55,793 nucleotides of DNA from Acidobacteriota bacterium (lineage in GTDB: Bacteria; Acidobacteriota; Polarisedimenticolia; J045), in NCBI GenBank assembly GCA_025456425.1, contig JALOKP010000003.1:1-55793 (forward strand), read 5' to 3'. A program made the position numbers and the translations under genes. The notes beneath the pieces were generated by a model. The model saw nothing but the letters and a program-made list of their open reading frames with translations, was not told the origin of the DNA and did no database searches. Within the stretch, counting starts at the first letter, position 1. Each line of letters starts with the position of its first letter. Positions 19,328-32,848 of this stretch are shown piece by piece.

Positions 19328-19388
19328 ACCGAGCCTTTTTCCGGCCACGACCCGCTGCACGCGGCGGGCCAGGGGTTGGGGGAGACGC

Positions 19389-19784
19389 ATGAGGAAGCGC
19401 GAGCGCGAACGGTTCCTGAAGCTGCTCGAAACGCGCCGGCAGACGCTTCTCGCCCGCTCGGCGCGCACCGCCGAGGAAGGCCGCGAGGTCGTGCCCGAGG
19501 GGGGCGAGGACTACGTCGACGACGCGGTGACCCACTACACGCGGGAATTCCTGCTGTCGCTCTCCGACCTCGAGCGCCGCCAGGTGCTTCAGGTCGAGGA
19601 AGCGATCGTCCGGGTCAAGGAAGGGACCTTCGGCGAGTGCATGTCGTGCGGCGACGAGATCGAGCCCAGGCGGCTCGAAGCCGTCCCCTGGGCCCGCTAC
19701 TGCGTGTCGTGCCAGGAGATCGCCGAGAAGGAAGAGCTGGCCGAGCGCTACCACGTCCGCGACATCTCCGAGGAAGAAGAGTAG
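19389..19784 (+). CDS. DksA/TraR-family zinc-finger transcription regulator
   Basis: A 131-residue protein with a charged N-terminal helix pair and a C4 zinc finger (Cys84, Cys87, Cys105, Cys108). Proteins of this family enter the secondary channel of RNA polymerase and, with ppGpp, adjust transcription of rRNA and amino-acid genes. The coiled-coil tip carries acidic residues (EDYVDDA, 40-46) comparable to the DxxDxA motif of DksA. The tail is very acidic (ISEEEE). It has its own promoter and a GGGGGAGA ribosome site just before ATG 19389. It could be DksA proper or a paralogue. Confidence 0.88.
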   Translation: MRKRERERFLKLLETRRQTLLARSARTAEEGREVVPEGGEDYVDDAVTHYTREFLLSLSDLERRQVLQVEEAIVRVKEGTFGECMSCGDEIEPRRLEAVPWARYCVSCQEIAEKEELAERYHVRDISEEEE

Positions 19785-19792
19785 CCGCGGCC

Positions 19793-20986
19793 ATGTCCGG
19801 CCCCGGCACGGCGGTCGTCAGCGGCCGGGGCGCCCGCCGGGCCCGACGAGGCCACCCCTGGATCCACCGCGAGGAGCTGCGCTCGGTCGAGGCCGAGGCC
19901 GGAGCGATCGTCCGCGTGGTCGACGCCGCGGGCGCGCCGTGCGGCTGGGCCGCCTACTCGCCCGGCTCGCGGATCGTGCTGAGGATGGTGCAGCGCGGCG
20001 GCGCGGCGGACGAGCCGGCCCCGGCCGCGGAGTTCTGGGCGGCGCGGCTGGAGCGGGCCCTCGCGACGCGCGGCGCGGCGGCGGCGGCCGGGCCGGGCTG
20101 CGCGCGGCTGTTCCACGCCGACGCCGACGGTTTCCCGGGGCTGACCGTCGACCGCTACGGTGCGCACCTCGTGGCCCAGCGCACGACCGCCTGGGCCGAA
20201 CGCCACGGCGCGGCGCTGCTCGAGCGGCTCGCGGCGCGGGTCGGAGCCGAGTCGGTCCTGGCCCGCGACGACGCGCCGGGCCGCGAGGCCGAGGGGCTGC
20301 CGCGCGCGGTGGTCCAGTTGGTCGGCACGACCCCGGCGCAGCTCGAGGTCGAGTCCGGGGGCGCTCTCCGCCGGGTCGACCCGTGGCACGGTCACAAGAC
20401 GGGGCTCTACCTCGACCAGCAGGACAACCAGCGCCGCGCCCCGGGCTGGTTTGCGGCAGGGCCGGTGCTCGACGCCTTCTGCGGCGAGGGGGGGTTCGCC
20501 CTCCCGCTCGCGGCCGCCGGCCTCGAGGTGATGGCGATCGACCAGTCCCGTCCCGGGCTCGAAAGGGCAGTGGCCGCGGCCGAGGCGGCCGGCCTTGAGG
20601 GGCGGATCGAGTTCGTGCACGGCAACGTCTTCGATCTCCTGGCCGAGGCGGAGGCCGAGGGCCGGCGCTGGCCCGGAATCGTGCTCGACCCGCCCCCCTT
20701 CGCGCGCCGGCGCAGCGCCGCCGCCGGGGCGGCCCGCGGCTACCGCGACCTGCACCGGAGGGCGCTGCGGTGCCTCGCTCCCGGCGGCAGAATGGCGACG
20801 TTCTGCTGCACCGCGACCGTCGGGGCGGAGGAGTTCGAGGCGATGGTGAGGGAGGGGGCGGAGGAGGCCGCGGCGGCGCTGACGGTGCTGGCCCGGCTCG
20901 GGCCCGCCGCGGATCACCCGGAGCGGCTGGAGCTGCCCGAGAGCCGCTACCTGAAAGGGCTCCTGCTGCAGCGGGACGCCGGCTGA
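19793..20986 (+). CDS. Class I rRNA methyltransferase, RlmI/RlmK-L-like
   Basis: A 397-residue protein with an N-terminal PUA-like domain (about 5-75; GHPWIHREEL is the typical opening) and a Rossmann methyltransferase domain. SAM-binding motif I reads VLDAFCGEGGFAL, followed by an acidic strand (VMAIDQS) and the catalytic-type motif LDPPPFARRR. WHGHKTGLYLDQQDNQR matches the conserved segment before motif I in RlmI. It probably methylates a cytosine of 23S rRNA, but the exact base cannot be assigned. It follows the DksA gene by 8 bases and may be co-transcribed. Confidence 0.88.
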   Translation: MSGPGTAVVSGRGARRARRGHPWIHREELRSVEAEAGAIVRVVDAAGAPCGWAAYSPGSRIVLRMVQRGGAADEPAPAAEFWAARLERALATRGAAAAAGPGCARLFHADADGFPGLTVDRYGAHLVAQRTTAWAERHGAALLERLAARVGAESVLARDDAPGREAEGLPRAVVQLVGTTPAQLEVESGGALRRVDPWHGHKTGLYLDQQDNQRRAPGWFAAGPVLDAFCGEGGFALPLAAAGLEVMAIDQSRPGLERAVAAAEAAGLEGRIEFVHGNVFDLLAEAEAEGRRWPGIVLDPPPFARRRSAAAGAARGYRDLHRRALRCLAPGGRMATFCCTATVGAEEFEAMVREGAEEAAAALTVLARLGPAADHPERLELPESRYLKGLLLQRDAG

Positions 20987-20992
20987 GGCCGC

Positions 20993-23900
20993 GTGCGACG
21001 GATCCTCCACGCCCTGGCGATCGTGCTCGCGGTCTTCGCCGCGATCTTCCTCGTGGCGTGGATCGTCGTCTCGTCGTCCTGGACCGAGAACCGCGCCCGG
21101 CTGCTGCTGGTCGAGCAGTTGCGGAAGGAACTCGGCGGCGAGGTCGAGATCGAGGACCTGTCGCTGAGGCTGGTGCGGGCCGAGGCCCGGGTCCAGGGGC
21201 TGGCGCTGCGTGGTGGCTCCGGGCTGGTCGGCGAGCTGGCGCTGCGCGAGGGGACGGTGCGCCTCTCGCGGCGCGCGCTGCTGGGCGGGCTGGTCCGGCC
21301 GGTGCGGATCGAGGCCGACGGCCTTGCCGTGACGCTCGCCGAGACGCCGCCCGACGACGCGCCCGACGAGCCGCTCGACCTGTCGATCTTCTCGCGGCTG
21401 CGGCGCCTGCGGGTCGCCGACGGGAGCTTCCGCTTCCGCGGCCGCGAGCAGCGCTTCGCGGTCGACGTGGACGGGATCGGCCTCGACGGGCAGCCGGAGC
21501 GCGGCGGCTCGCGCGGCACCCTGACGGCGGGACCCGCGCGCTTCGAGCGGCCCGGTGCGGCGCCGCTGCTCCTCGACCGCCTGCGGGGCGAGTTCGCCTG
21601 GCACTCGCCGCGGCTGACGCTCGAGAACGTCACGCTCGAGGCGCCGGGCGCAAGCCTGTCCGGCTCCGGCAGCCTCGCGTTCCTGCCCACCGGGCTGGCG
21701 GCCCGGGCCGATGCGCGGGGCTCGGCGGCGCTGGAGGACTGGCTGGGCGCGGAGGTACCGGACCTCTCCGGGCGGATCGCGTTCGAGGGCGGCTTCCGCC
21801 TCGACGAGGACGGGAGCTGGACGGGGCAGGGCAGGCTGTCGAACGACGGCGCCGTGCGGTTCCGCCGCGCCGAGATCGTCCGGCTCGAGGCCTCGTTGGT
21901 GGCCGGCCCGGACGGCGTCCGCGTGGTCGACGGCCGTGCCGCCTCCGCCGCCGGTACGACGGTCGACCGCCTCGCCGTCGCCATCCGCGGCGGCGCGATC
22001 GAGGCCGAGGCGGGCGGGCGGCTGGTCGCGACGGACGTCTTCCCCAACCTCGGGCTGGAGCCCGACCTGGTCGCCGCGAGCGGCGCCTACCGGGCGCGGC
22101 TCTGGCGCACCCGCGAGGGGGAGCCGCTGCGCTGGAGCGTCGAGGCCGAGCCGGTGCCGGACCCGGCCCGGCCGAACGGTCTCGACGGGCGCTTCACCGG
22201 GGAAGGAGGCGGCGGGCGGATCGCGCTCGACTTTGGCGGCGCGTGGGGCGGGTCGAAGCTGACCTTCCGGCTGCGCGGTGACGACGCGGTGGTGCGCGAC
22301 GGCCTGACGATCGAGGCCGGGCTCGACGCGCCCGGCGCCGCCGCGGCGCGCGCCGCCTTCGCCCACCTGCTCGAGCAGGGGCGGCGGATCGACCTCGAGC
22401 TGCCGCTCGAGACCACGCCGGTCCCCGACGGCCCGATGCGCGTCGCCGCCACCGTGCGCCTCGTCGACGGCAAGCTGACCGGCCTCGCGGCGACGGTCGA
22501 CGTCGACGGCCTGTACCTCGGCCGCTCGCGCTTCGAGTCCTACCATGGGCAGTTCGACGAGACGGCGCGCGATCGCTGGGAGCTGGCGATGCACGCCACC
22601 GACGCGACCGGGGGCCGCGTCGAGGCCACGCTCGAGATCCCGCCGGGGCCCGGGTTCACCCTGGACGCCCGCGCCACCGAGGCCGACTACGACGCGGTGT
22701 CGGAGGTCGTGCGCGCGCTCGGGATCGAGCTCGAGCTGCCGGAGGGGCGGGGGCTCGTGAGCGGCACGATCGCGGGGGACTGGTCCGCGGCGGCGGCCCG
22801 GCTCGAGTTCGACGCCGCGACCGAGCTGACGCTCGGCGACGCGACGCCCGTCACCGCCGCGGCCCGCGGCACGCTGACGAACGACGCGGTCCGGCTCGAC
22901 GACGGGACGCTCCGCCTGCCCGGGCTCGAGGCGGCCTTCTCGGGGGATGTCGCGCTGCCGGACGGTCCGCGGCCGCTGCAGGCGCGGCTGCGCTCCCGCG
23001 TCCGCGCCGAACTGGCCCCGCTCTTCGGCTGGCTGGAACTCGGCGAGGCCTCCGGCATCGTGGAGGGGGACCTCGCCGGGACCTTCGAGAGCTTCGACCG
23101 GCCGCTGCCGCTCGAAGGGACGGTGTCCTGGCGGGAACTCGCGGTCTCCGGGCTCCGCATCCCGGCGGGGGCGGCGGCGGTGACCGCGGAGGACGACGGC
23201 TTCCGGTTGGACTCGACCGCCGGCAGGCTGGAGCACCGGCTCGCGATCTCCGGACCGATCGGAAACCCCTCGTTCGAGCTGACGACCCACTCCGACGGCA
23301 TGCCCGTGCAGGACCTGGCGGCGAGCGAGCTGGGCGCCGGCTCGGCGGTCCAGGCCGAGGGGCGCGGCACGCTCCACGCCGCGGGCGTGCTGCGCGAGCA
23401 GCCGACCTGGCACGGCCGCCTCGATCTCGAGGGGCTGTCGCTCACCGCGGCGACGATCGAAGCGCATCTGGCGAGGCCGGCTCGGATCGACCTGGAGCCC
23501 GGCGGGCGGCTGACCCTCGTGACCCCCGTCGAACTGGTGACCGCGCGAGACAGCCGGATGAAGATCGAGGGGGAATACGGGCTCTGGGGCCGGGCCGAAG
23601 GGCAGCTCGGGCTGGTCGTGACCGGCTCGCTCGACCTCGCCGTGCTCGAGCTGTACGCCAGCGACGTGATCTCCTCGGGCACGGTCAGCGCGACGCTCAA
23701 GGTGAGCGGGACGCTCGAACACCCCGAGCTGTTCGGGGCGATGCAGATCACCGGGGGCCGCGTCCTCTACGTGCCGTTCGCCCAGGTGATCGACGGGATC
23801 GAGGGGGAGGTCCTCTACGACGGGGAGGAGGCGACGATCCGCAGCCTCACCGGCCACAGCGGCGGAGGGACGATTGCGCTCGAGGGGCGGGCTGCGCTGT

Positions 23901-26900
23901 CGGGGCTGGCGGTCGAGCGGATCGACCTGCGGGCCACGGTCGACAACGTCGCGGTCGCCTACCCGCGGGGTTTTCTCGGCCGCTACGACGCCGACGCGAC
24001 GGTCACCGGGACGCTGGAGGGGGCGCAGGTCAGGGGGATCGTCACCGTCCTCTCGGGGCGCTACGCCCAGGACTTCCAGCTGGTCGGCGGAGCGCTCGGC
24101 CGCTCGCGCAAGGTCCAGCCGAAGGCCTCGGCCGCCAGCTGGATGCAACGGATCGGGCTCTCGCTCGACGTCGTCGCCGAGGACTCGCTGTCGGTCCGCA
24201 ACGAGCTGGCGCGCGTCGACGCCTCGGCCCGGTTGGTGGTCAGGGGGACCCTGGCCGGCCCGCTCCTGGTCGGCAACGTGACGCTGCTCGAGGGGGGCGA
24301 GATCACCTTCCGCGACGTCGACTACGACCTGCTCTCGGGCCAGGTCACGATGGACGACGTGCGCGCCGCCCCGGTCCGGGTGCGCGCCGTGGCCGAGACG
24401 GAGGTCAGCGGCTACCAGGTCCGGATCGACCTCGACGCGACGACGGAGACAGTCGAGTACACGCTGACCTCGACCCCTGCACTGTCGCGGGCCGACATCC
24501 TGTCACTGCTGTTGACCGGCCGGACCAACCGCGAGTCGGGCGGCGCCAGCTCGGCCTCGCTGGAGTCGCAGGGGGCGGCCTACTTCGGCACCGCGCTCAG
24601 CGAGATGCTGCTGTCGGGCACGGCGAAGAAGTACCTCGGCCTGAATCGCTTCTCGATCAGCCCGGTCGAGGCCTCGCCCGGCTCCGAGCCGACGGCGCGG
24701 CTCACGGTCGGCAAGCGCCTGGACGAGAAGACCAACGTGCTCTACTCGCGCGACCTCGCCGGCGAGACGAGCGACGTCTACTCGATTGAGCGCGAGATCG
24801 CGCCGCGGACCAAGATCGTCGCCGGGCAGAACGACAAGGGGGGAGTCGGCGCCAGCGTGCGCTGGACCTACCGCTTCGGCGCGAGCGACGACGGGCGCGG
24901 TGCGCTCCAGGCTCCCGACCGGTTGGGCGACGTCGAGATCACCGGGCTGCCGGAGGGGATGAATGTCTCGCGCCGGAAGATCGGGGTCTCGCGCGGCACG
25001 CCGCTGAGCCGCTCGACTCTGATCCAGGCCGCGGAGGGGCTGAAGCTCGCCTTGGTCGAGCGCGGCTACCTGCAGGCCACCGTCGTGCCGCGGACGGTCA
25101 AGGCCCCGGGGGCCGCGCGCGCGTCGATCCAGCTGGAAGCCACCCCGGGCCCGCTCTGGGAGGTGCGGATCAAGGGCGCCGGGGGATCGGAGCGGACCGT
25201 CCGCCGCGCGCTCGACGAGTTCTGGGCCCTCGTCGACTTCCGGTCCGGACTGCACCGCCAGACCGAGAGCCTGGTGCGCGAGCGGCTGGCCGAGGAGGGG
25301 TACGCGGCGGCCACGGTCTCGATTACGGACGGCGCCGGGGACCCGCCCTGGGTGGCGGTCTCGGTCGACCCGGGGGCGAGGGTCCGCGTCGCGGAGGTCA
25401 AGGTCGCCGGCAACCAGGCCCTGCCGGACGCCGAGGTGCTGAAGCAGATCCTCTCGCGGCCGGGCTGGCGACCGGGCGACAAGCCGACCTACCGCCCGCG
25501 CGAGGTCGAGGAGGACGCGGAGGCGATCCGCACCCTCTACGCGACCGAGGGCTACCTCGACGCCGTGGTCGCGCCGCGCGTGCGGTTCCGGACGGATGGC
25601 GAGGAGGTCCTGGTCACCTACCGGATTGAGGAGGGGCAGCGGGCCCGGATCGGGGCGGTGCGGATCGACGGCGACTGGCCCGCGGCGCTCGGCCGCGCCA
25701 GCGACCGCATCCCGTTCCGGACCGGCGACAACTTCAAGCCGCAGAAGGTCGAGCAGACCGAGCGCACGCTGCGCGCAGCGCTCGACGACGCCGGCTACTA
25801 CGACTCGGCGGTCTCGATGCTGCTGCAGTCGGGCGACGGGAAGGTCGACGTGACCTACCGCGTCCAGGCGGGCCGGCCCTACACGATCGCCTCGGTCGCC
25901 TTCTCGGGGCTGGAGAAGACGCGCGAGAAGGTCGTCCGGCAGGCGGTGACGCTGCAGGCCGGCCAGCCGCTGACCCGTGCCGCGGTCCAGGAGACCGAGC
26001 GCAACCTGTTCGCGCTGGGACTGTTCCGCGAGATCGAGGTCAGGACCACGCCGGTCCCGGACCAGCCGGAGCGGCAGGCGGTGGTGATCGAGCTCAAGGA
26101 AGCGCCGACCACCTCGCTCACGCTCTCGGGGGGATGGGACACCGAGACCCAGTTCGCGGCCGCGGTCGGGCTCTCGCACGACAACCTGTGGGGGATCGGC
26201 CGGACCGGCGGGATCCAGGCCTACTACTCGTCGATCCTGAGCGGGGTGCGGGCCACGCTCGAGGACCGCCGCCTGCGCCGCGGCACGCTCGAAGGGCTGG
26301 TCACGGCCGGCTGGGAGGAGGAGGTCTACCCGGGCTTCACTTCGGACACCACGAGCGCGGCGGTCCAGCTCGCGGTGCCGGAGCTGCGGAACAAGCGCTG
26401 GCTGGTGCGCTACCAGCTGGAGGACACGCGGATCGTCGAGAGCGCGCTCTCGACCAATGAGTCCTTCAACGCGCTGCTCGACGAGCAGATCCAGCCCGTG
26501 CGGCTGGGTTCGCTCGGCTTCGCCGGGCAGTACGACCGGCGCGACGACCCGTTCCTGCCGACCCGCGGCTGGGTGGTGCGGGGCGACGTCGGGCTGTTCT
26601 CGACCTGGCTCGCCTCGCAGGAGGAGTTCTGGCGCGTCCAGGGCCAGATCGGGGGCTACTGGCCGGTCGGCAACCGGTTGACCTTCGCCTCCGCGGTCCG
26701 GGTCGGGTTCGCTCCGCCGTACGGCGAGACGGCCTGCGTCCCGCTGCAGAAGCGCTTCTTCACCGGCGGCTTCGACAGCGTCCGAGGGTTCCCCCGCGAC
26801 GGTCTCAACCCGGTCGTCGAGAACGAGGCGTCGGTCCAGTGCTGGACCGACGACGCCGGCACGATCGTGATCCCGGTCGGCAGTCCGCTCGAGGTCGGCG

Positions 26901-27160
26901 GCGAATCGATGTTCGTGTTCAACCTCGAGGCACGCTACCGCGTCTGGGGCGAGGCCGAGGTGGTGCTCTTCACCGACCGCGGCAACGTCTGGCTGACGAT
27001 CCCCGAGTGGGACCCTTTCGACACGCGCAACACGCTCGGCCTGGGGTTCCGCTACCGCACGCCGATCGGCGCGCTGCGCGCCGAGTACGGCTGGAAGCTC
27101 GACCGCCAGCCGGGCGAGTCGGGCGGCCAGTTCTACTTTGCGATCGGCGACGTCTTCTGA
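20993..27160 (+). CDS. TamB-Omp85 (TamA/BamA-like) fusion, single-chain translocation and assembly module
   Basis: One uninterrupted 2055-residue frame. A hydrophobic N-terminal helix (about 3-28) without a clear cleavage site should anchor it in the inner membrane. Residues about 40-1150 are repetitive short beta strands as in the TamB/AsmA family. About 1160-1296 is the TamB C-terminal (DUF490) domain, with LSRADILSLLLTGR, KKYLGLNRFSIS and VGKRLDEKTNVLYSRD. About 1311-1709 contains roughly five POTRA-like repeats, including FSGLEKTREKVVRQAV and ALGLFREIEV. About 1708-2055 is an Omp85 beta-barrel with VRGF at 1930-1933 and a terminal Phe. In known systems TamA and TamB are separate outer- and inner-membrane proteins. 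The GTG at 20993 follows the methyltransferase by 6 bases; ruvX follows by 13. Domain identity is firm, the joint function inferred. Confidence 0.93.
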   Translation: MRRILHALAIVLAVFAAIFLVAWIVVSSSWTENRARLLLVEQLRKELGGEVEIEDLSLRLVRAEARVQGLALRGGSGLVGELALREGTVRLSRRALLGGLVRPVRIEADGLAVTLAETPPDDAPDEPLDLSIFSRLRRLRVADGSFRFRGREQRFAVDVDGIGLDGQPERGGSRGTLTAGPARFERPGAAPLLLDRLRGEFAWHSPRLTLENVTLEAPGASLSGSGSLAFLPTGLAARADARGSAALEDWLGAEVPDLSGRIAFEGGFRLDEDGSWTGQGRLSNDGAVRFRRAEIVRLEASLVAGPDGVRVVDGRAASAAGTTVDRLAVAIRGGAIEAEAGGRLVATDVFPNLGLEPDLVAASGAYRARLWRTREGEPLRWSVEAEPVPDPARPNGLDGRFTGEGGGGRIALDFGGAWGGSKLTFRLRGDDAVVRDGLTIEAGLDAPGAAAARAAFAHLLEQGRRIDLELPLETTPVPDGPMRVAATVRLVDGKLTGLAATVDVDGLYLGRSRFESYHGQFDETARDRWELAMHATDATGGRVEATLEIPPGPGFTLDARATEADYDAVSEVVRALGIELELPEGRGLVSGTIAGDWSAAAARLEFDAATELTLGDATPVTAAARGTLTNDAVRLDDGTLRLPGLEAAFSGDVALPDGPRPLQARLRSRVRAELAPLFGWLELGEASGIVEGDLAGTFESFDRPLPLEGTVSWRELAVSGLRIPAGAAAVTAEDDGFRLDSTAGRLEHRLAISGPIGNPSFELTTHSDGMPVQDLAASELGAGSAVQAEGRGTLHAAGVLREQPTWHGRLDLEGLSLTAATIEAHLARPARIDLEPGGRLTLVTPVELVTARDSRMKIEGEYGLWGRAEGQLGLVVTGSLDLAVLELYASDVISSGTVSATLKVSGTLEHPELFGAMQITGGRVLYVPFAQVIDGIEGEVLYDGEEATIRSLTGHSGGGTIALEGRAALSGLAVERIDLRATVDNVAVAYPRGFLGRYDADATVTGTLEGAQVRGIVTVLSGRYAQDFQLVGGALGRSRKVQPKASAASWMQRIGLSLDVVAEDSLSVRNELARVDASARLVVRGTLAGPLLVGNVTLLEGGEITFRDVDYDLLSGQVTMDDVRAAPVRVRAVAETEVSGYQVRIDLDATTETVEYTLTSTPALSRADILSLLLTGRTNRESGGASSASLESQGAAYFGTALSEMLLSGTAKKYLGLNRFSISPVEASPGSEPTARLTVGKRLDEKTNVLYSRDLAGETSDVYSIEREIAPRTKIVAGQNDKGGVGASVRWTYRFGASDDGRGALQAPDRLGDVEITGLPEGMNVSRRKIGVSRGTPLSRSTLIQAAEGLKLALVERGYLQATVVPRTVKAPGAARASIQLEATPGPLWEVRIKGAGGSERTVRRALDEFWALVDFRSGLHRQTESLVRERLAEEGYAAATVSITDGAGDPPWVAVSVDPGARVRVAEVKVAGNQALPDAEVLKQILSRPGWRPGDKPTYRPREVEEDAEAIRTLYATEGYLDAVVAPRVRFRTDGEEVLVTYRIEEGQRARIGAVRIDGDWPAALGRASDRIPFRTGDNFKPQKVEQTERTLRAALDDAGYYDSAVSMLLQSGDGKVDVTYRVQAGRPYTIASVAFSGLEKTREKVVRQAVTLQAGQPLTRAAVQETERNLFALGLFREIEVRTTPVPDQPERQAVVIELKEAPTTSLTLSGGWDTETQFAAAVGLSHDNLWGIGRTGGIQAYYSSILSGVRATLEDRRLRRGTLEGLVTAGWEEEVYPGFTSDTTSAAVQLAVPELRNKRWLVRYQLEDTRIVESALSTNESFNALLDEQIQPVRLGSLGFAGQYDRRDDPFLPTRGWVVRGDVGLFSTWLASQEEFWRVQGQIGGYWPVGNRLTFASAVRVGFAPPYGETACVPLQKRFFTGGFDSVRGFPRDGLNPVVENEASVQCWTDDAGTIVIPVGSPLEVGGESMFVFNLEARYRVWGEAEVVLFTDRGNVWLTIPEWDPFDTRNTLGLGFRYRTPIGALRAEYGWKLDRQPGESGGQFYFAIGDVF

Positions 27161-27173
27161 CGCGGGGGGCGGC

Positions 27174-27608
27174 GTGAGCCAGGTGCTGGGGGTCGACGTC
27201 GGGACCAGGACGCTGGGGCTGGCGGTCAGCGACGACGCGCGCCGGGTCGCGATGCCGCTGACGGTGATCCGCCGCGCCGGGATGGCGCGCGACCTGGCCG
27301 CGCTGCGCACGATCGTCGAGGAGCGCGGGATCACCGAGGCGGTCGTGGGGCTCCCGCTCAACCTCGACGGCTCGCCCGGCGCGATGACCGCGGAGGCCGA
27401 CCGGATCGTGGCGGCGCTGGAAGGGCTGGGGGTAACGGTGCACCGCGAGGACGAGCGGCTGACGACGGTCGACGCCGAGCGGATGCTGATCGAGGCCGAC
27501 CTCTCGCGCCGGCGGCGCCGGCAGGTCGTCGACAAGATCGCCGCGACCTACATCCTGCAGGACTGGCTCGACCGCACCGCCGCGCCCGGCCGCGGGAACG
27601 ACGCGTGA
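27174..27608 (+). CDS. ruvX: Holliday junction resolvase-like RuvX (YqgF)
   Basis: A 144-residue RNase H-fold protein starting at GTG 27174, with a G-rich ribosome site just upstream. Motifs are GVDVGTRTLGLAVSD near the N-terminus, VVGLPLNLDGSPG, EDERLTTVDAERML and VDKIAATYILQDWL at the end. Family members have been linked to pre-16S rRNA 5'-end processing and to Holliday junction resolution. It overlaps mltG by 4 bases; a yqgF-mltG pair is found in many bacteria. Confidence 0.95.
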   Translation: MSQVLGVDVGTRTLGLAVSDDARRVAMPLTVIRRAGMARDLAALRTIVEERGITEAVVGLPLNLDGSPGAMTAEADRIVAALEGLGVTVHREDERLTTVDAERMLIEADLSRRRRRQVVDKIAATYILQDWLDRTAAPGRGNDA

Positions 27609-28639
27609 GCGGGCGCCGCGCGCTGACGCTGGCGGCGGCGCTCGCCCTCGCGGCCGCGGGCCTGACCGGGGCCGCGGCCTGGGCCACCTGGCGCGGCTTC
27701 CTCGACACGGCGGTCGCACCCTCGGGCGGCCGCCCGGTGACGGTCCCCGTCCGCACCGGCGCGACCGCCCGCGAGGTGTCTCAGCAACTGGCGCGCGAGG
27801 GGGTGGTCTCCTCGGCCCGGCTCTTCGAGTGGTTCCTGCGCTTCGAAGGGGCCGAGGCCGCCGTACAGGCGGGCGAGCACCGCTTCGAACGCGCGCTGCG
27901 CCCGGCCGAGGTGCTCGAGGAACTGCGCGTCGCGCAGGCGTCGGACCTGGAGGTGACCCTGCTCGAGGGCTGGACCCGGATGCAGGTCGTGGCCGCGCTC
28001 GCCGCGGCCGGGGTGGCGGACGGGGCCGCGCTCGACGCGGCCTTCGCCGACCCGGCGCCGGTGCGCGACTTCGACCCCGCGGCGCGCGACCTGGAGGGGT
28101 ACCTCTTCCCGGACACCTACCGCTTTCGGCCCGGGACCGCGCCGCGCGAGGTCGCAGCGCTGCTGGTCGCGAACTTCCGCCGGCGCTTCGCGGAACCCTA
28201 CGCGGCGGCGGTGCGGGGATCGGGACGGCCGCTGCACGAGGTCGTCACCCTGGCCTCGATCGTCGAGCGCGAGACCGGCGGCGCGAGCGAGCGGCCGCAG
28301 GTCGCCGGCGTCTTCCTCGACCGGCTGGCGCGCGGGATGCCGCTGCAGTCCGACCCGACCGTGATCTACGCGCGCGAGCGGGCCGGCACCTGGGACGGGA
28401 ACCTGACGCGGGCGGACCTCGAGCGGGACGACCCCTACAACACCTACACGCGCGGCGGCCTGCCGCCGGGCCCGATCGGCTCACCCGGCCTGGCGGCGCT
28501 GCGCGCGGTGCTCGAGCCCGAGCGCACGGGCGCGCTCTACTTCGTCTCGCGCGGCGACGGGACGCACCAGTTCAGCCGGACGCTGGCGGAGCACAACCGC
28601 GCGGTGCGGCGCTACCAGCTGCGGGGCCGGGCGCGGTAG
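27605..28639 (+). CDS. mltG: Endolytic transglycosylase MltG
   Basis: A 344-residue cell-wall enzyme (YceG family). An N-terminal transmembrane helix (about 5-27) anchors it facing the periplasm, followed by a LysM-like part (about 45-115) and the catalytic domain. LEGYLFPDTYRF, ASIVERETGG (Glu221/Glu223 region), MPLQSDPTVIY, YNTYTRGGLPPGPI and the ending YFVSRGDGTHQFS are signatures. It cuts nascent glycan strands and is proposed to end peptidoglycan polymerisation. GTG 27605 forms GTGA with the ruvX stop. Confidence 0.96.
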   Translation: MSGRRALTLAAALALAAAGLTGAAAWATWRGFLDTAVAPSGGRPVTVPVRTGATAREVSQQLAREGVVSSARLFEWFLRFEGAEAAVQAGEHRFERALRPAEVLEELRVAQASDLEVTLLEGWTRMQVVAALAAAGVADGAALDAAFADPAPVRDFDPAARDLEGYLFPDTYRFRPGTAPREVAALLVANFRRRFAEPYAAAVRGSGRPLHEVVTLASIVERETGGASERPQVAGVFLDRLARGMPLQSDPTVIYARERAGTWDGNLTRADLERDDPYNTYTRGGLPPGPIGSPGLAALRAVLEPERTGALYFVSRGDGTHQFSRTLAEHNRAVRRYQLRGRAR

Positions 28640-29446: not shown

Positions 29447-29500
29447 GACAGGTCGGTCGTGGGGAGATCACGGGGCGCACGGGCCACGGAAGGGCATTCG

Positions 29501-30487
29501 ATGGGTGAGGGGACGGCACCGGGAGGTCCGGGCGGGGCGGAGACTGCGTCCGTGCGGGCCCCGATGATCGAGATCGAGAACCTCCGCAAGCTCTACGGGC
29601 AGCACGAGGCGGTGAAGGGGATCACCTTCACCGTCCGGGCGGGGGAGATCCTCGGCTTTCTCGGCCCCAACGGGGCGGGGAAGTCGACCACCATGAAGGT
29701 CATGACCTGCCTCACCCCGCCGACCTCCGGCTCGGTGCGGATCGCTTCCCACGACGTGCTGCTCGAGCCGCTCGAAGTCCGGCGGGCGATCGGCTTCCTG
29801 CCCGAGACCCCTCCTCTCTACCCGGAGATGGTGGTCGAGGACTACCTGTCGTTTGCGGCCGAGATCCGGCGCGTGCGCCGCGCGCAGCGCCGGGCCGCGA
29901 TCGACGCGGCGCTCGAGCGCTGCGGCCTCGTCGAGGTCCGGCGGCGGCTCGTCGGCAACCTGTCGAAGGGCTACCGCCAGCGCGTCGGCCTGGCCCAGGC
30001 GGTGATCCACGAGCCGCGGATCCTGATCCTCGACGAGCCGACGGTCGGGCTCGACCCGACCCAGGTGATCGAGATCCGCACGATCATCCGCGACATCGGG
30101 CAGGACCGCACCGTGATCCTCTCGAGCCACATCCTTCCCGAGGTCCAGGCCACCTGCCAGCGGGTCGTGATCATCAACCGCGGCCAGATCGTGGCCGAGG
30201 GGCCGATGGAGGAGCTGCTCCACCGCCACGGCGGCGGGTCGTGGCACTTCACGCTGCGCCGGCCGCCGGCCGACGACGGCGCGCTGGCCGCGCTGCCGGG
30301 GCTGGACCGGTTGTTCGCGCTGGGGGGCGGCCGCTACCGGGCCGCGCTCGTGCCGGGGGACGACGCGCGCGAGAGCGCCGTCCGCGCGCTGGCCGCAGGC
30401 CCCTGGGGGCTGGTCGAGTTCGCGCCCGAGACGACGACGCTGGAAGAGGTCTTCCGCGAGGTCGTCCTGCAGGAGGCCCGCGCATGA
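29501..30487 (+). CDS. ABC transporter ATPase, GldA-type
   Basis: A 328-residue ATP-binding subunit of an ABC-2 type system. Walker A GPNGAGKS is at 55-62, the signature is the variant LSKGY at 154-158, and Walker B is LILDEP followed by TVGLDP. LSKGYRQRVGLAQA and the extra C-terminal domain (about 240-328) are typical of the GldA/NosF-like class. ATG 29501 was chosen for the GGAAGG ribosome site 7 bases upstream; a GTG at 29459 and an ATG at 29564 are alternatives. It overlaps the permease gene by 4 bases (ATGA). In Bacteroidetes GldA-GldF-GldG is linked to gliding; here only an envelope export role can be inferred. Confidence 0.9.
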   Translation: MGEGTAPGGPGGAETASVRAPMIEIENLRKLYGQHEAVKGITFTVRAGEILGFLGPNGAGKSTTMKVMTCLTPPTSGSVRIASHDVLLEPLEVRRAIGFLPETPPLYPEMVVEDYLSFAAEIRRVRRAQRRAAIDAALERCGLVEVRRRLVGNLSKGYRQRVGLAQAVIHEPRILILDEPTVGLDPTQVIEIRTIIRDIGQDRTVILSSHILPEVQATCQRVVIINRGQIVAEGPMEELLHRHGGGSWHFTLRRPPADDGALAALPGLDRLFALGGGRYRAALVPGDDARESAVRALAAGPWGLVEFAPETTTLEEVFREVVLQEARA

Positions 30488-31242
30488 GCCAGGTCTGGGC
30501 CGTCTTCAAGCGCGAGCTGAAGTCCTACTTCGTCTCGCCGCTCGCCTACACCGCGATCGCCAGCTTCCTGTTCGTGATGAACGTGCTGTTCGTCTTCTCG
30601 CTCAATGCCTACGAGACGACGCGCCGCGCCGCCGCGCAGCAGCTGCAGCAGGTTCCGGGCGCGGAGGCGCTGGTACGCGACATCTTCGGCGGCAATGTGA
30701 TGTGGGCGCTGGTCTTCATCGTGCCGCTGGTGACGATGCGGCTGCTCGCGGAAGAGCGCCGCCAGCACACCGCCGAGCTCCTGCTCACGGCCCCGATGAC
30801 GACGCGCCAGCTCGTCCTCGGCAAGTTCCTGGGCGCGGTCTTCATCCTGGCCGTGATGCTGGCCCTGATCGGCTGGCAGCCGCTGCTGCTGCGGATGTGG
30901 GGCGACGCCGACCCGGCGCCGGTCTGGACCGGGTTCCTGGCCGCGCTGCTCTACGGCAGCTTTCTGCTGTCGATCGGCCTGCTGGCCTCGAGCCTGACCG
31001 AGAGCACTTTCGTCGCCGCGATCATCGCGCTGGGCCTGCTGGCGCTGGTCAACTGGGGCGGGGTCGCGGTCGGGCAGATCCCGATCATCGGGCCGGGGCT
31101 CGAGCAGTTCACGCCGGTCGAGAACCTCAAGGCGCTGGTCCGGGGCACGATCGAGACCCGGGCGGTGGTCTACTTCCTGACGATGACGCTGTTCGTGGTC
31201 GACCTGACCGCGCGGGTCGTCGACAGCCAGCGCTGGAGGTGA
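30484..31242 (+). CDS. ABC-2 type permease, GldF-like
   Basis: A 252-residue inner-membrane protein with about six transmembrane helices (about 20-40, 70-90, 108-128, 143-165, 175-195 and 228-245). The N-terminus VFKRELKSYFVSPLAY and the cytoplasmic EERRQHTAELLLTAPMT are signatures of the GldF/NosY-like ABC-2 family. It is preceded by the ATPase with a 4-base overlap and followed after 4 bases by the GldG-like gene, so the three form one export complex by context. Confidence 0.9.
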   Translation: MSQVWAVFKRELKSYFVSPLAYTAIASFLFVMNVLFVFSLNAYETTRRAAAQQLQQVPGAEALVRDIFGGNVMWALVFIVPLVTMRLLAEERRQHTAELLLTAPMTTRQLVLGKFLGAVFILAVMLALIGWQPLLLRMWGDADPAPVWTGFLAALLYGSFLLSIGLLASSLTESTFVAAIIALGLLALVNWGGVAVGQIPIIGPGLEQFTPVENLKALVRGTIETRAVVYFLTMTLFVVDLTARVVDSQRWR

Positions 31243-31246
31243 GCCG

Positions 31247-32848
31247 ATGAAGAAGCTCGCCCACCTCGCCGGACCGATCGGCCTCGCGCTGCTGGTAATC
31301 GGATCGGGCTGGGCCGCGCTGGTGCCGGCCTCGATCCCGTGGCTCTACCAGTCGCTGCTGGTCGCCGGGGCGCTGCTGGCCACGATCGGCCTGTGGACCC
31401 ACCGCTCCGACCTGCTGGCGCCGGCCGGCACGCGCCGCGCCCGCCAGGGGGCGGGCGCGCTGGCCTCGGTCGCGGTGGCCATCGGAATCGTGCTGCTCGT
31501 CAACTTCCTCGCCGCACGCTACAACGAGCGCTACGACTTCACGCGCGCCCGCTCGTTCTCGCTCCACCCCGCGACGGAACGCGTGCTGAAGGCGCTGCCG
31601 GAGGGGGTCGAAGTGGTCGGCTTCTTCCCGCAGGCCGACCGCAACACTTTCCGCTCGGTCCGGATCCTGTTCGAGACCTTCGCGGCGTCGCAGCCGAGGC
31701 TCAAGCTGACCGTCGCCGACCCGAACCAGCAGCCCGACCTGTACGAGCGGCTCGGGCGCCCCGGCTCGCGCGTCACGGTGGTCCATCGCGGCGAGCGGCG
31801 CGTCGTCCTTCCGGGGTTCGAGGAAGGGGACCTCGCCGCCGCGCTGCTGGAGGTGGGGCGGGAGCAGTCGCGCGTCGTCTACTGGGTCATCGGCCACGAC
31901 GAGCGCCCGGTCGACGCGCGGGGCGCGCTGGGCTACCAGCGGCTGCAGTCCGACCTGATCAAGGACTACTACGAGATCCGCACGCTCTCGCTCGGGGCCG
32001 GCGAGAAGGTCCCCGCCGACGCGGCGCTGGTGGTGATCGCCGATCCGCGCCGGCCGGTCCCGCCGGCGGAGGTCGCGGCCTACGACGCCTACCTGCGCCG
32101 CGGCGGCCGCCTGCTGGCGCTGGTCGACGTCGACCCCGGGCAGGGCGAGACCCAGGCCAACCCGCTGGCCGAGCTGCTCGAGCGCTGGGGCCTGTTTGCG
32201 CGCCGCGGACTGATCCTCGACCCGCGCGAGCGGACCGGCGACCGCGACCCGCGGAAGGTCGTCGGCGACCGCTTCCCGCACAACTCGGTCAACGCGCTCG
32301 AGGGCCAGCTGACGCTCTTCCCGCAGGCCCGGCCGGTCGAGTTCGGCCCCGTGATGGACGACCAGCAGGTGTTCCACTACAAGCTGGTCGAGCTGGCGGC
32401 CGGCCCGCCGGGGCAGGGGAAGGACCCGTTCGTCTCGGCCGACCTGTCGCTGGCCCTGCGGCCGGCGGAAGAGCTGGCCGGCCTGTCCCGGCCGGGTCAG
32501 CCGCCGGAGCCGATCGCCGTGGCGATCGGCGCATTCCGGAAGTTCACGCCGCGGGCGGGCGATACGCGCGTCGGCCGGGAGGCGCGCGCCGCGCTGATCG
32601 GCGACGCCGACTTCCTGAACGACGCCCACTTCGACCAGGTGGCGAACCGCGAACTGGCGCTGAACGTCGTGCGCTGGCTGACCGGCGAGGAGCTGCTGAT
32701 CCGGCGCGAGGGGGAACGCCGCCAGGCGCGCGAGGCGATGATGGTCTCGCCGGCCCAGATGAACCTGGTGATCGCGCTCGCGCTCGGGGCGCCGATCGTC
32801 GTCTTCCTCGTCGGCTGGATCGTCTGGCTGACCCGGAGGAGCAGGTGA
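31247..32848 (+). CDS. GldG-like ABC auxiliary protein
   Basis: A 533-residue protein with two N-terminal transmembrane helices (about 8-28 and 33-50), a third hydrophobic segment (about 68-88), then a long extracytoplasmic domain and a C-terminal helix (about 508-528) followed by Arg residues. The domain has YDFTRARSFSLHPATERVL, a common opening of the GldG/IFT52-like family (ABC_transp_aux). The family has no enzymatic activity known to me and accompanies GldA/GldF. It overlaps the following gene by 4 bases (GTGA). Confidence 0.85.
   Translation: MKKLAHLAGPIGLALLVIGSGWAALVPASIPWLYQSLLVAGALLATIGLWTHRSDLLAPAGTRRARQGAGALASVAVAIGIVLLVNFLAARYNERYDFTRARSFSLHPATERVLKALPEGVEVVGFFPQADRNTFRSVRILFETFAASQPRLKLTVADPNQQPDLYERLGRPGSRVTVVHRGERRVVLPGFEEGDLAAALLEVGREQSRVVYWVIGHDERPVDARGALGYQRLQSDLIKDYYEIRTLSLGAGEKVPADAALVVIADPRRPVPPAEVAAYDAYLRRGGRLLALVDVDPGQGETQANPLAELLERWGLFARRGLILDPRERTGDRDPRKVVGDRFPHNSVNALEGQLTLFPQARPVEFGPVMDDQQVFHYKLVELAAGPPGQGKDPFVSADLSLALRPAEELAGLSRPGQPPEPIAVAIGAFRKFTPRAGDTRVGREARAALIGDADFLNDAHFDQVANRELALNVVRWLTGEELLIRREGERRQAREAMMVSPAQMNLVIALALGAPIVVFLVGWIVWLTRRSR

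Follow-up and report, generated by a model that had tools for sequence, protein, structure and literature searches.

Can the two halves of a bacterial translocation and assembly module (TAM), an inner-membrane TamB and an outer-membrane Omp85 protein, be encoded as one polypeptide? The question is raised by a gene at positions 20,993 to 27,160 of contig JALOKP010000003.1, from an Acidobacteriota bacterium of the class Polarisedimenticolia (assembly GCA_025456425.1), within an analysed stretch of 55,793 nucleotides that we refer to as the window. In E. coli and other Proteobacteria the TAM consists of two proteins, encoded as tamA and then tamB, whereas here TamB comes first and both parts would belong to one chain. 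The original prediction, made from the DNA letters, described an uninterrupted frame of 2055 codons in which a TamB body, the TamB C-terminal domain, about five POTRA repeats and an Omp85 barrel follow each other and are covalently joined. The frame indeed runs unbroken from the GTG at 20993 to the stop at 27158-27160 on the forward strand and encodes 2055 amino acids with zero unknown residues.

Pfam matches and AlphaFold2 models both confirm this domain order (Table 1). The C-terminal DUF490 domain of TamB (PF04357) is present, scoring 122.4 bits against a cut-off of 22.4; POTRA (PF07244) is matched in four stretches and Omp85 (PF01103) at residues 1731-2055 with 140.9 bits. The models of residues 1-1200 (predicted local distance difference test, pLDDT, 82.3; predicted template modelling score, pTM, 0.49) and 860-2055 (mean pLDDT 83.1, pTM 0.73) predict an N-terminal helix, a beta-strand body with the groove or "taco" shape of TamB, six further strands at the end of the TamB part and a barrel of 16 strands that carries VRGF, as in TamA. 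From the strand list of the model we read five beta-alpha-alpha-beta-beta POTRA units at residues 1310-1703, in keeping with the predicted number. Both the VRGF motif, whose arginine is invariant across 45 aligned sequences, and the final phenylalanine are found where they had been described. The strands of the TamB body are amphipathic (0 of 2000 shuffles were equally high), a property that is not special to the groove; the amphipathy of the six C-terminal TamB strands, which lie internally before the linker and POTRA 1, did not exceed that of shuffles.

This fused architecture is conserved and not unique to the source genome. TamB, POTRA and Omp85 share one chain in 102 (query included) of the best 120 of 271 homologues. 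Within the window's class, 35 out of 41 genomes were classified: 30 of these 35 carry everything from TamB through the barrel in one frame, and TamB and POTRA share a frame in 33, which excludes that relatives all encode two proteins at the junction. Three of the 33 cross the junction and break later, at a contig end (G035), a frame change (G028) and ten Ns in POTRA 1 (G010), and in the other two genomes the contig ends before the junction. G010 as a true two-gene arrangement was rejected on this account, and a clean TamB/Omp85 gene pair occurred in none of the 35. Among the six unclassified genomes, G005 matched residues 11-908 only, G013, G032, G038 and G040 gave weaker matches and G017 gave none. 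One homologue of 1863 amino acids (P0005) is without an Omp85 match and aligns to the query until its own residue 1401, with other letters after, which we describe here as an apparent frame break. The N-termini of two fused relatives (P0012 and P0013) look, by eye, like cleavable or lipobox signals and not like an anchor.

The rest of the phylum presents a mixed picture. Outside the class, TamB was matched in 97 genomes. Leaving aside, for the most part, repeats of a genus or family and partial matches that were weak, we hand-picked 68 of these. In categories that overlap, 20 of them hold a fused gene, 36 an Omp85 frame directly downstream of TamB (within 600 bases, referred to here as tandem) and six both; two hold TamB and POTRA in frame without a barrel, three have Omp85 1.4-1.8 kb downstream, three have it upstream, and 14 have TamB alone in the fetched stretch. 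Fused and tandem copies co-occur in G048 (L136/L141), G066 (L168/L129), G138, G125, G064 and G141, where roles may be split between the two. In the window's family, G009 carries beside its fused gene a TamA-clade Omp85 of 633 aa and, after it, a TamB of 1532 aa, the E. coli order (L221), and G002 has, downstream of an N run, a frame of 934 aa that comprises a TamB tail, POTRAs and a barrel (L214), perhaps a second fused copy. All six named fused loci belong to Acidobacteria or Acidobacteriota; by matching coordinates, CP070706 corresponds to G002 and Acidobacteria bacterium Mor1 (CP011806) to G020 of the class. A single-protein scan of genome contigs yielded no relatives, and an alignment-based scan gave 276 matches, of which 80 were kept. 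These 80 loci include seven pairs of Verrucomicrobiota, all of two genes; the survey of fused genes itself was confined to the phylum.

In order to place the Omp85 half we used a tree of 57 rows, rooted on BamA by choice, with most rows hand-picked from a larger tree of 117. Fused and tandem Omp85s cluster with E. coli TamA (support 98/91), while the separate BamA of the source genome clusters with E. coli BamA (96/93); six of the pairs counted as tandem have their Omp85 within the TamA-side clade. A canonical BamA identity of the half was therefore rejected, since it groups with TamA and apart from the genome's own BamA. This agrees with a partly consulted study by Heinz et al. (2015), in which a second BamA of Acidobacteria branches with TamA (PMC4494059). 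One result weighs against the assignment to the TamA clade, as the fused half scores 305.5 bits with the NCBIfam BamA equivalog, just above its cut-off. The original prediction had called the number of POTRAs closer to that of BamA than to the three of TamA; the five predicted units agree with this, and despite them the half groups with TamA.

The trees also indicate how often the architecture has changed. At least five changes of the fused state are needed in the 117-row tree. This tree was built quickly and has several long branches; it omits duplicate or broken loci, rows with a barrel score below 140 or a length below 520 residues, and most of the unlinked Omp85 rows. Four changes are needed in the 57-row tree, three of them forced by starred branches. 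A single clade for the 18 fused rows was rejected in the smaller tree (p-AU 2e-7), and the fused state has therefore changed more than once. These counts do not separate gain from loss, and the sequences would allow repeated fusion, fission or both as possible histories.

The junction itself points to the kinship between fused and tandem genes. In tandem relatives TamB ends directly behind the strand that is also its last in the fused chain, for instance with ...RKRF or ...WQRRY; the E. coli end ...LLYQFEF was set against ...RWTYRF by eye, as the profile alignment stops at E. coli residue 1203. Across 45 aligned rows the linker after this strand has a median of 16 residues and a range of 4-211, compared with 14 in the query. 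Eight rows (P0016, P0017, P0019, P0020, P0022, P0024, P0028 and P0030) contain about 200 extra residues before the aligned POTRA 1, which from their sequence look like two additional POTRAs, and the length of the POTRA arm seems to vary among fused chains. A hydrophobic window of 12 residues scoring at least 2.0 was found before POTRA in 0 of 57 frames holding TamB and POTRA (60 residues considered), whereas among 67 separate Omp85 frames located next to a TamB, 51 had one (up to 90 residues considered). Both sets contain a few duplicate contigs; in the second, four rows stem from the broken genes of G010 and G028, and there are rows with Omp85 not downstream. An Omp85 made separately from the fusion gene would therefore seem to be without an export signal, in contrast to TamA, which is a separate chain with its own signal peptide.

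Both halves carry most features of their families, yet the protein departs from the definition of the TAM as two polypeptides, being one open frame, and from that of TamA as having three POTRAs (PMC4104836, consulted in part), as the model contains five. Judged by these features, the fusion is a TAM in one chain whose number of POTRAs resembles that of BamA and, by analogy, it likely works like a TAM.

A TamB-type protein that contacts the POTRAs of an Omp85 protein across two membranes is also known from chloroplasts, where TIC236 and TOC75 are two proteins engaged in protein import. Among the nearest described systems are the TamB and second BamA of Acidobacteria, described in PMC4494059, which share with our locus the phylum, an Omp85 grouping with TamA, an operon with TamB and, in some cases, extra POTRAs. 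There they are separate proteins, the terms "fused", "fusion" and "single protein" are absent from the main text as far as it was available for term look-up, and the order is given as BamA-TamB, whereas TamB precedes Omp85 in 36 of our 68 phylum genomes and the reverse holds in three. According to the accessible part of PMC12045153, TamL-TamB of Bacteroidota is likewise a TAM variant outside Proteobacteria and is reported to be essential in Flavobacterium johnsoniae, but TamL is a separate lipoprotein. In Borreliella burgdorferi, the DUF490 domain of TamB binds the POTRAs of an Omp85 with five such domains; this interaction is non-covalent and involves BamA as a separate protein (PMC11361582, in part). 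The nearest one-chain analogue comes from Veillonella parvula, whose elongated MlaD is, as described in part of PMC10665443, a proposed transenvelope phospholipid bridge of one polypeptide, with one end in the inner membrane and a barrel in the outer membrane. Its domains are unrelated: it has an MCE domain, a ten-strand barrel and a proposed retrograde transport, and MCE (PF02470) was not matched in the fused protein at E up to 1. A description of a TamB-Omp85 fusion was not found in the literature, exact fusion phrases included, in a search that lay outside subscription journals and preprints, nor by term look-ups in the available parts of PMC4104836, PMC4827864, PMC11361582, PMC12800296, PMC11014939, PMC12045153, PMC11341756, PMC10665443 and PMC4494059.

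We consider it likely that one chain, combining an inner-membrane-anchored TamB with an outer-membrane TamA-type barrel, acts as a fixed TAM whose groove conveys phospholipids outward. With slightly less confidence we favour the broader proposal that this TAM stays uncleaved and joins both membranes as a covalent lipid bridge, having arisen repeatedly within Acidobacteriota from tamB-Omp85 genes in tandem, the tandem pair being the presumed ancestor of the fused gene. The N-terminal helix would anchor the chain in the inner membrane, and by the time the separate BamA inserts the barrel, the chain would already be tethered there. Phospholipids would take the route proposed for TamAB, entering near the anchor, passing along the hydrophobic groove and exiting at the barrel or its side gate, and the TamB tail would dock on the POTRA arm or the barrel, enforcing a 1:1 ratio. 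An E. coli TamAB cryo-EM study, of which part was consulted, ties TamAB to phospholipid transport and outer membrane protein (OMP) insertion; it places the last TamB strand in a pair with TamA strand 1 and additional strands of the tail within the barrel (PMC12800296). In the fused chain a linker of 14 residues holds the last TamB strand to POTRA 1, a domain expected to lie well away from the barrel if the arm is extended; therefore the arm would fold back, or the tail would dock on the POTRAs or in trans. The VIA rows 23 and 44 start at model residues 361-362, inside the TamB tail, and are a hint at best that the tail adjoins barrel strand 1.

The most trivial alternative is that two adjacent genes only seem to be fused through an assembly or frame artefact. 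The window does come from a draft assembly, and the frames of G010 and G028 break within the POTRA region, but both still cross the TamB-POTRA junction; the unbroken frames of the class and the fused genes of 20 other phylum genomes make this explanation highly improbable, and we rejected it. It is more conceivable, albeit doubtful, that the whole chain is made and then cut at the polar linker after export, as in some autotransporters, which would yield an ordinary two-protein TAM with a fixed 1:1 ratio. Such a cut would suit a linker that is short, variable in sequence and modelled with low confidence, and many phylum relatives do encode two separate genes; against it, the junction lacks a hydrophobic signal (no search for protease sites was made) and the one-frame fusion is kept throughout the class.

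Other alternatives accept the intact chain and differ in its task or its partner. The protein could be mainly a device for OMP assembly or tethering, with TamB as a scaffold for a TamA-type insertase and little lipid transport. Its barrel and POTRAs are similar to those of BamA and TamA, and TAM catalyses OMP assembly in vitro (PMC11341756, in part). The TamB body is nevertheless retained and amphipathic, and TamB-type proteins have been tied to phospholipid transport (PMC8593681 and PMC8912898, both in part), so that we regard this as a minority possibility, if the least improbable of these alternatives. Alternatively, the docking site of the tail might belong to the separate BamA or to another copy, giving a BAM-linked tether or a swapped dimer. 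The short linker to POTRA 1, the presence of a separate BamA in the genome and the binding of Borreliella TamB DUF490 to BamA POTRA2 and 3 (PMC11361582, in part) would all fit such an arrangement, which we nonetheless hold to be unlikely.

The genome around this gene was considered as well. The source assembly (252 contigs, 84.9% complete) holds a separate canonical BamA on contig C172, with five POTRA stretches and 429 bits, as well as LptD and MlaD matches. Of the separate tamA, tamB and bamA that the original prediction proposed to look for, bamA is present, and a second TamB was not found at this completeness. AsmA (PF05170) had no match either, YhdP and DUF748 not being searched for; the fused protein may therefore be the genome's main TamB-type bridge. 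Two further frames of the genome touch on Omp85: a 769-aa PlpD-like patatin-like phospholipase on contig C129 (L009:5587-7896, +) whose Omp85 barrel match is weak and below the cut-off, and a 1270-aa protein on contig C35 (L008:4660-8472, +) with a peptidase-MA domain, a TolB-like propeller and an Omp85-like C-terminal stretch. Among 27 compared loci, a relative of the upstream methyltransferase frame occurs at six, two of which are one contig, and RuvX and YceG are each present at four. Further downstream, at 29459-32848 of the window, lie frames for an ABC ATPase, an ABC-2 permease and ABC_transp_aux, which presumably resemble a gliding-type ABC transporter.

Table 1. Coordinates in the window of the fusion gene, its parts and the adjoining frames.
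Feature	Position	Strand	Remarks
Fusion gene, TamB-linker-five POTRAs-Omp85 barrel	20993..27160	+	2055 aa
N-terminal hydrophobic helix (residues 2-27), presumed inner-membrane signal anchor	20996..21073	+	sequence; helix in model
TamB-type beta-strand body (50-1216)	21140..24640	+	
TamB domain PF04357 (952-1295)	23846..24877	+	Pfam match (best stretch)
TamB C-terminal six strands (1219-1295), last letters ...RWTYRF	24647..24877	+	strands from model
Polar linker, 14 residues (1296-1309)	24878..24919	+	low model confidence; signal peptide not seen
POTRA 1, predicted (1310-1384)	24920..25144	+	model secondary structure
POTRA 2, predicted (1390-1459)	25160..25369	+	model secondary structure
POTRA 3 (1465-1546)	25385..25630	+	Pfam and model secondary structure
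POTRA 4 (1552-1625)	25646..25867	+	model secondary structure
POTRA 5 (1631-1703)	25883..26101	+	model secondary structure
Omp85 barrel, 16 predicted strands (1707-2055)	26111..27157	+	
VRGF motif (1930-1933)	26780..26791	+	sequence and alignment
Upstream PUA/SAM methyltransferase frame	19376..20986	+	six bases separate it from the fusion start
Downstream RuvX and YceG frames	27138..28639	+	longest RuvX frame begins within the fusion's end

To our knowledge, whether TamB delivers lipids to, or through, its Omp85 partner is an open question. The one-chain state, found class-wide and apparently joined more than once, offers natural evidence for TamB and Omp85 acting as a 1:1 unit, and with the fused gene the groove, the POTRA arm and the barrel become open to joint testing within one protein. 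A puzzle of biogenesis arises as well, as the barrel would have to reach the outer membrane with its N-terminus held in the inner one. If our proposal is true, the chain sets both the stoichiometry and the spacing of the membranes, and the barrel has to insert while tied to the inner membrane, and the fusion would bear on how Acidobacteriota tie their two membranes together.

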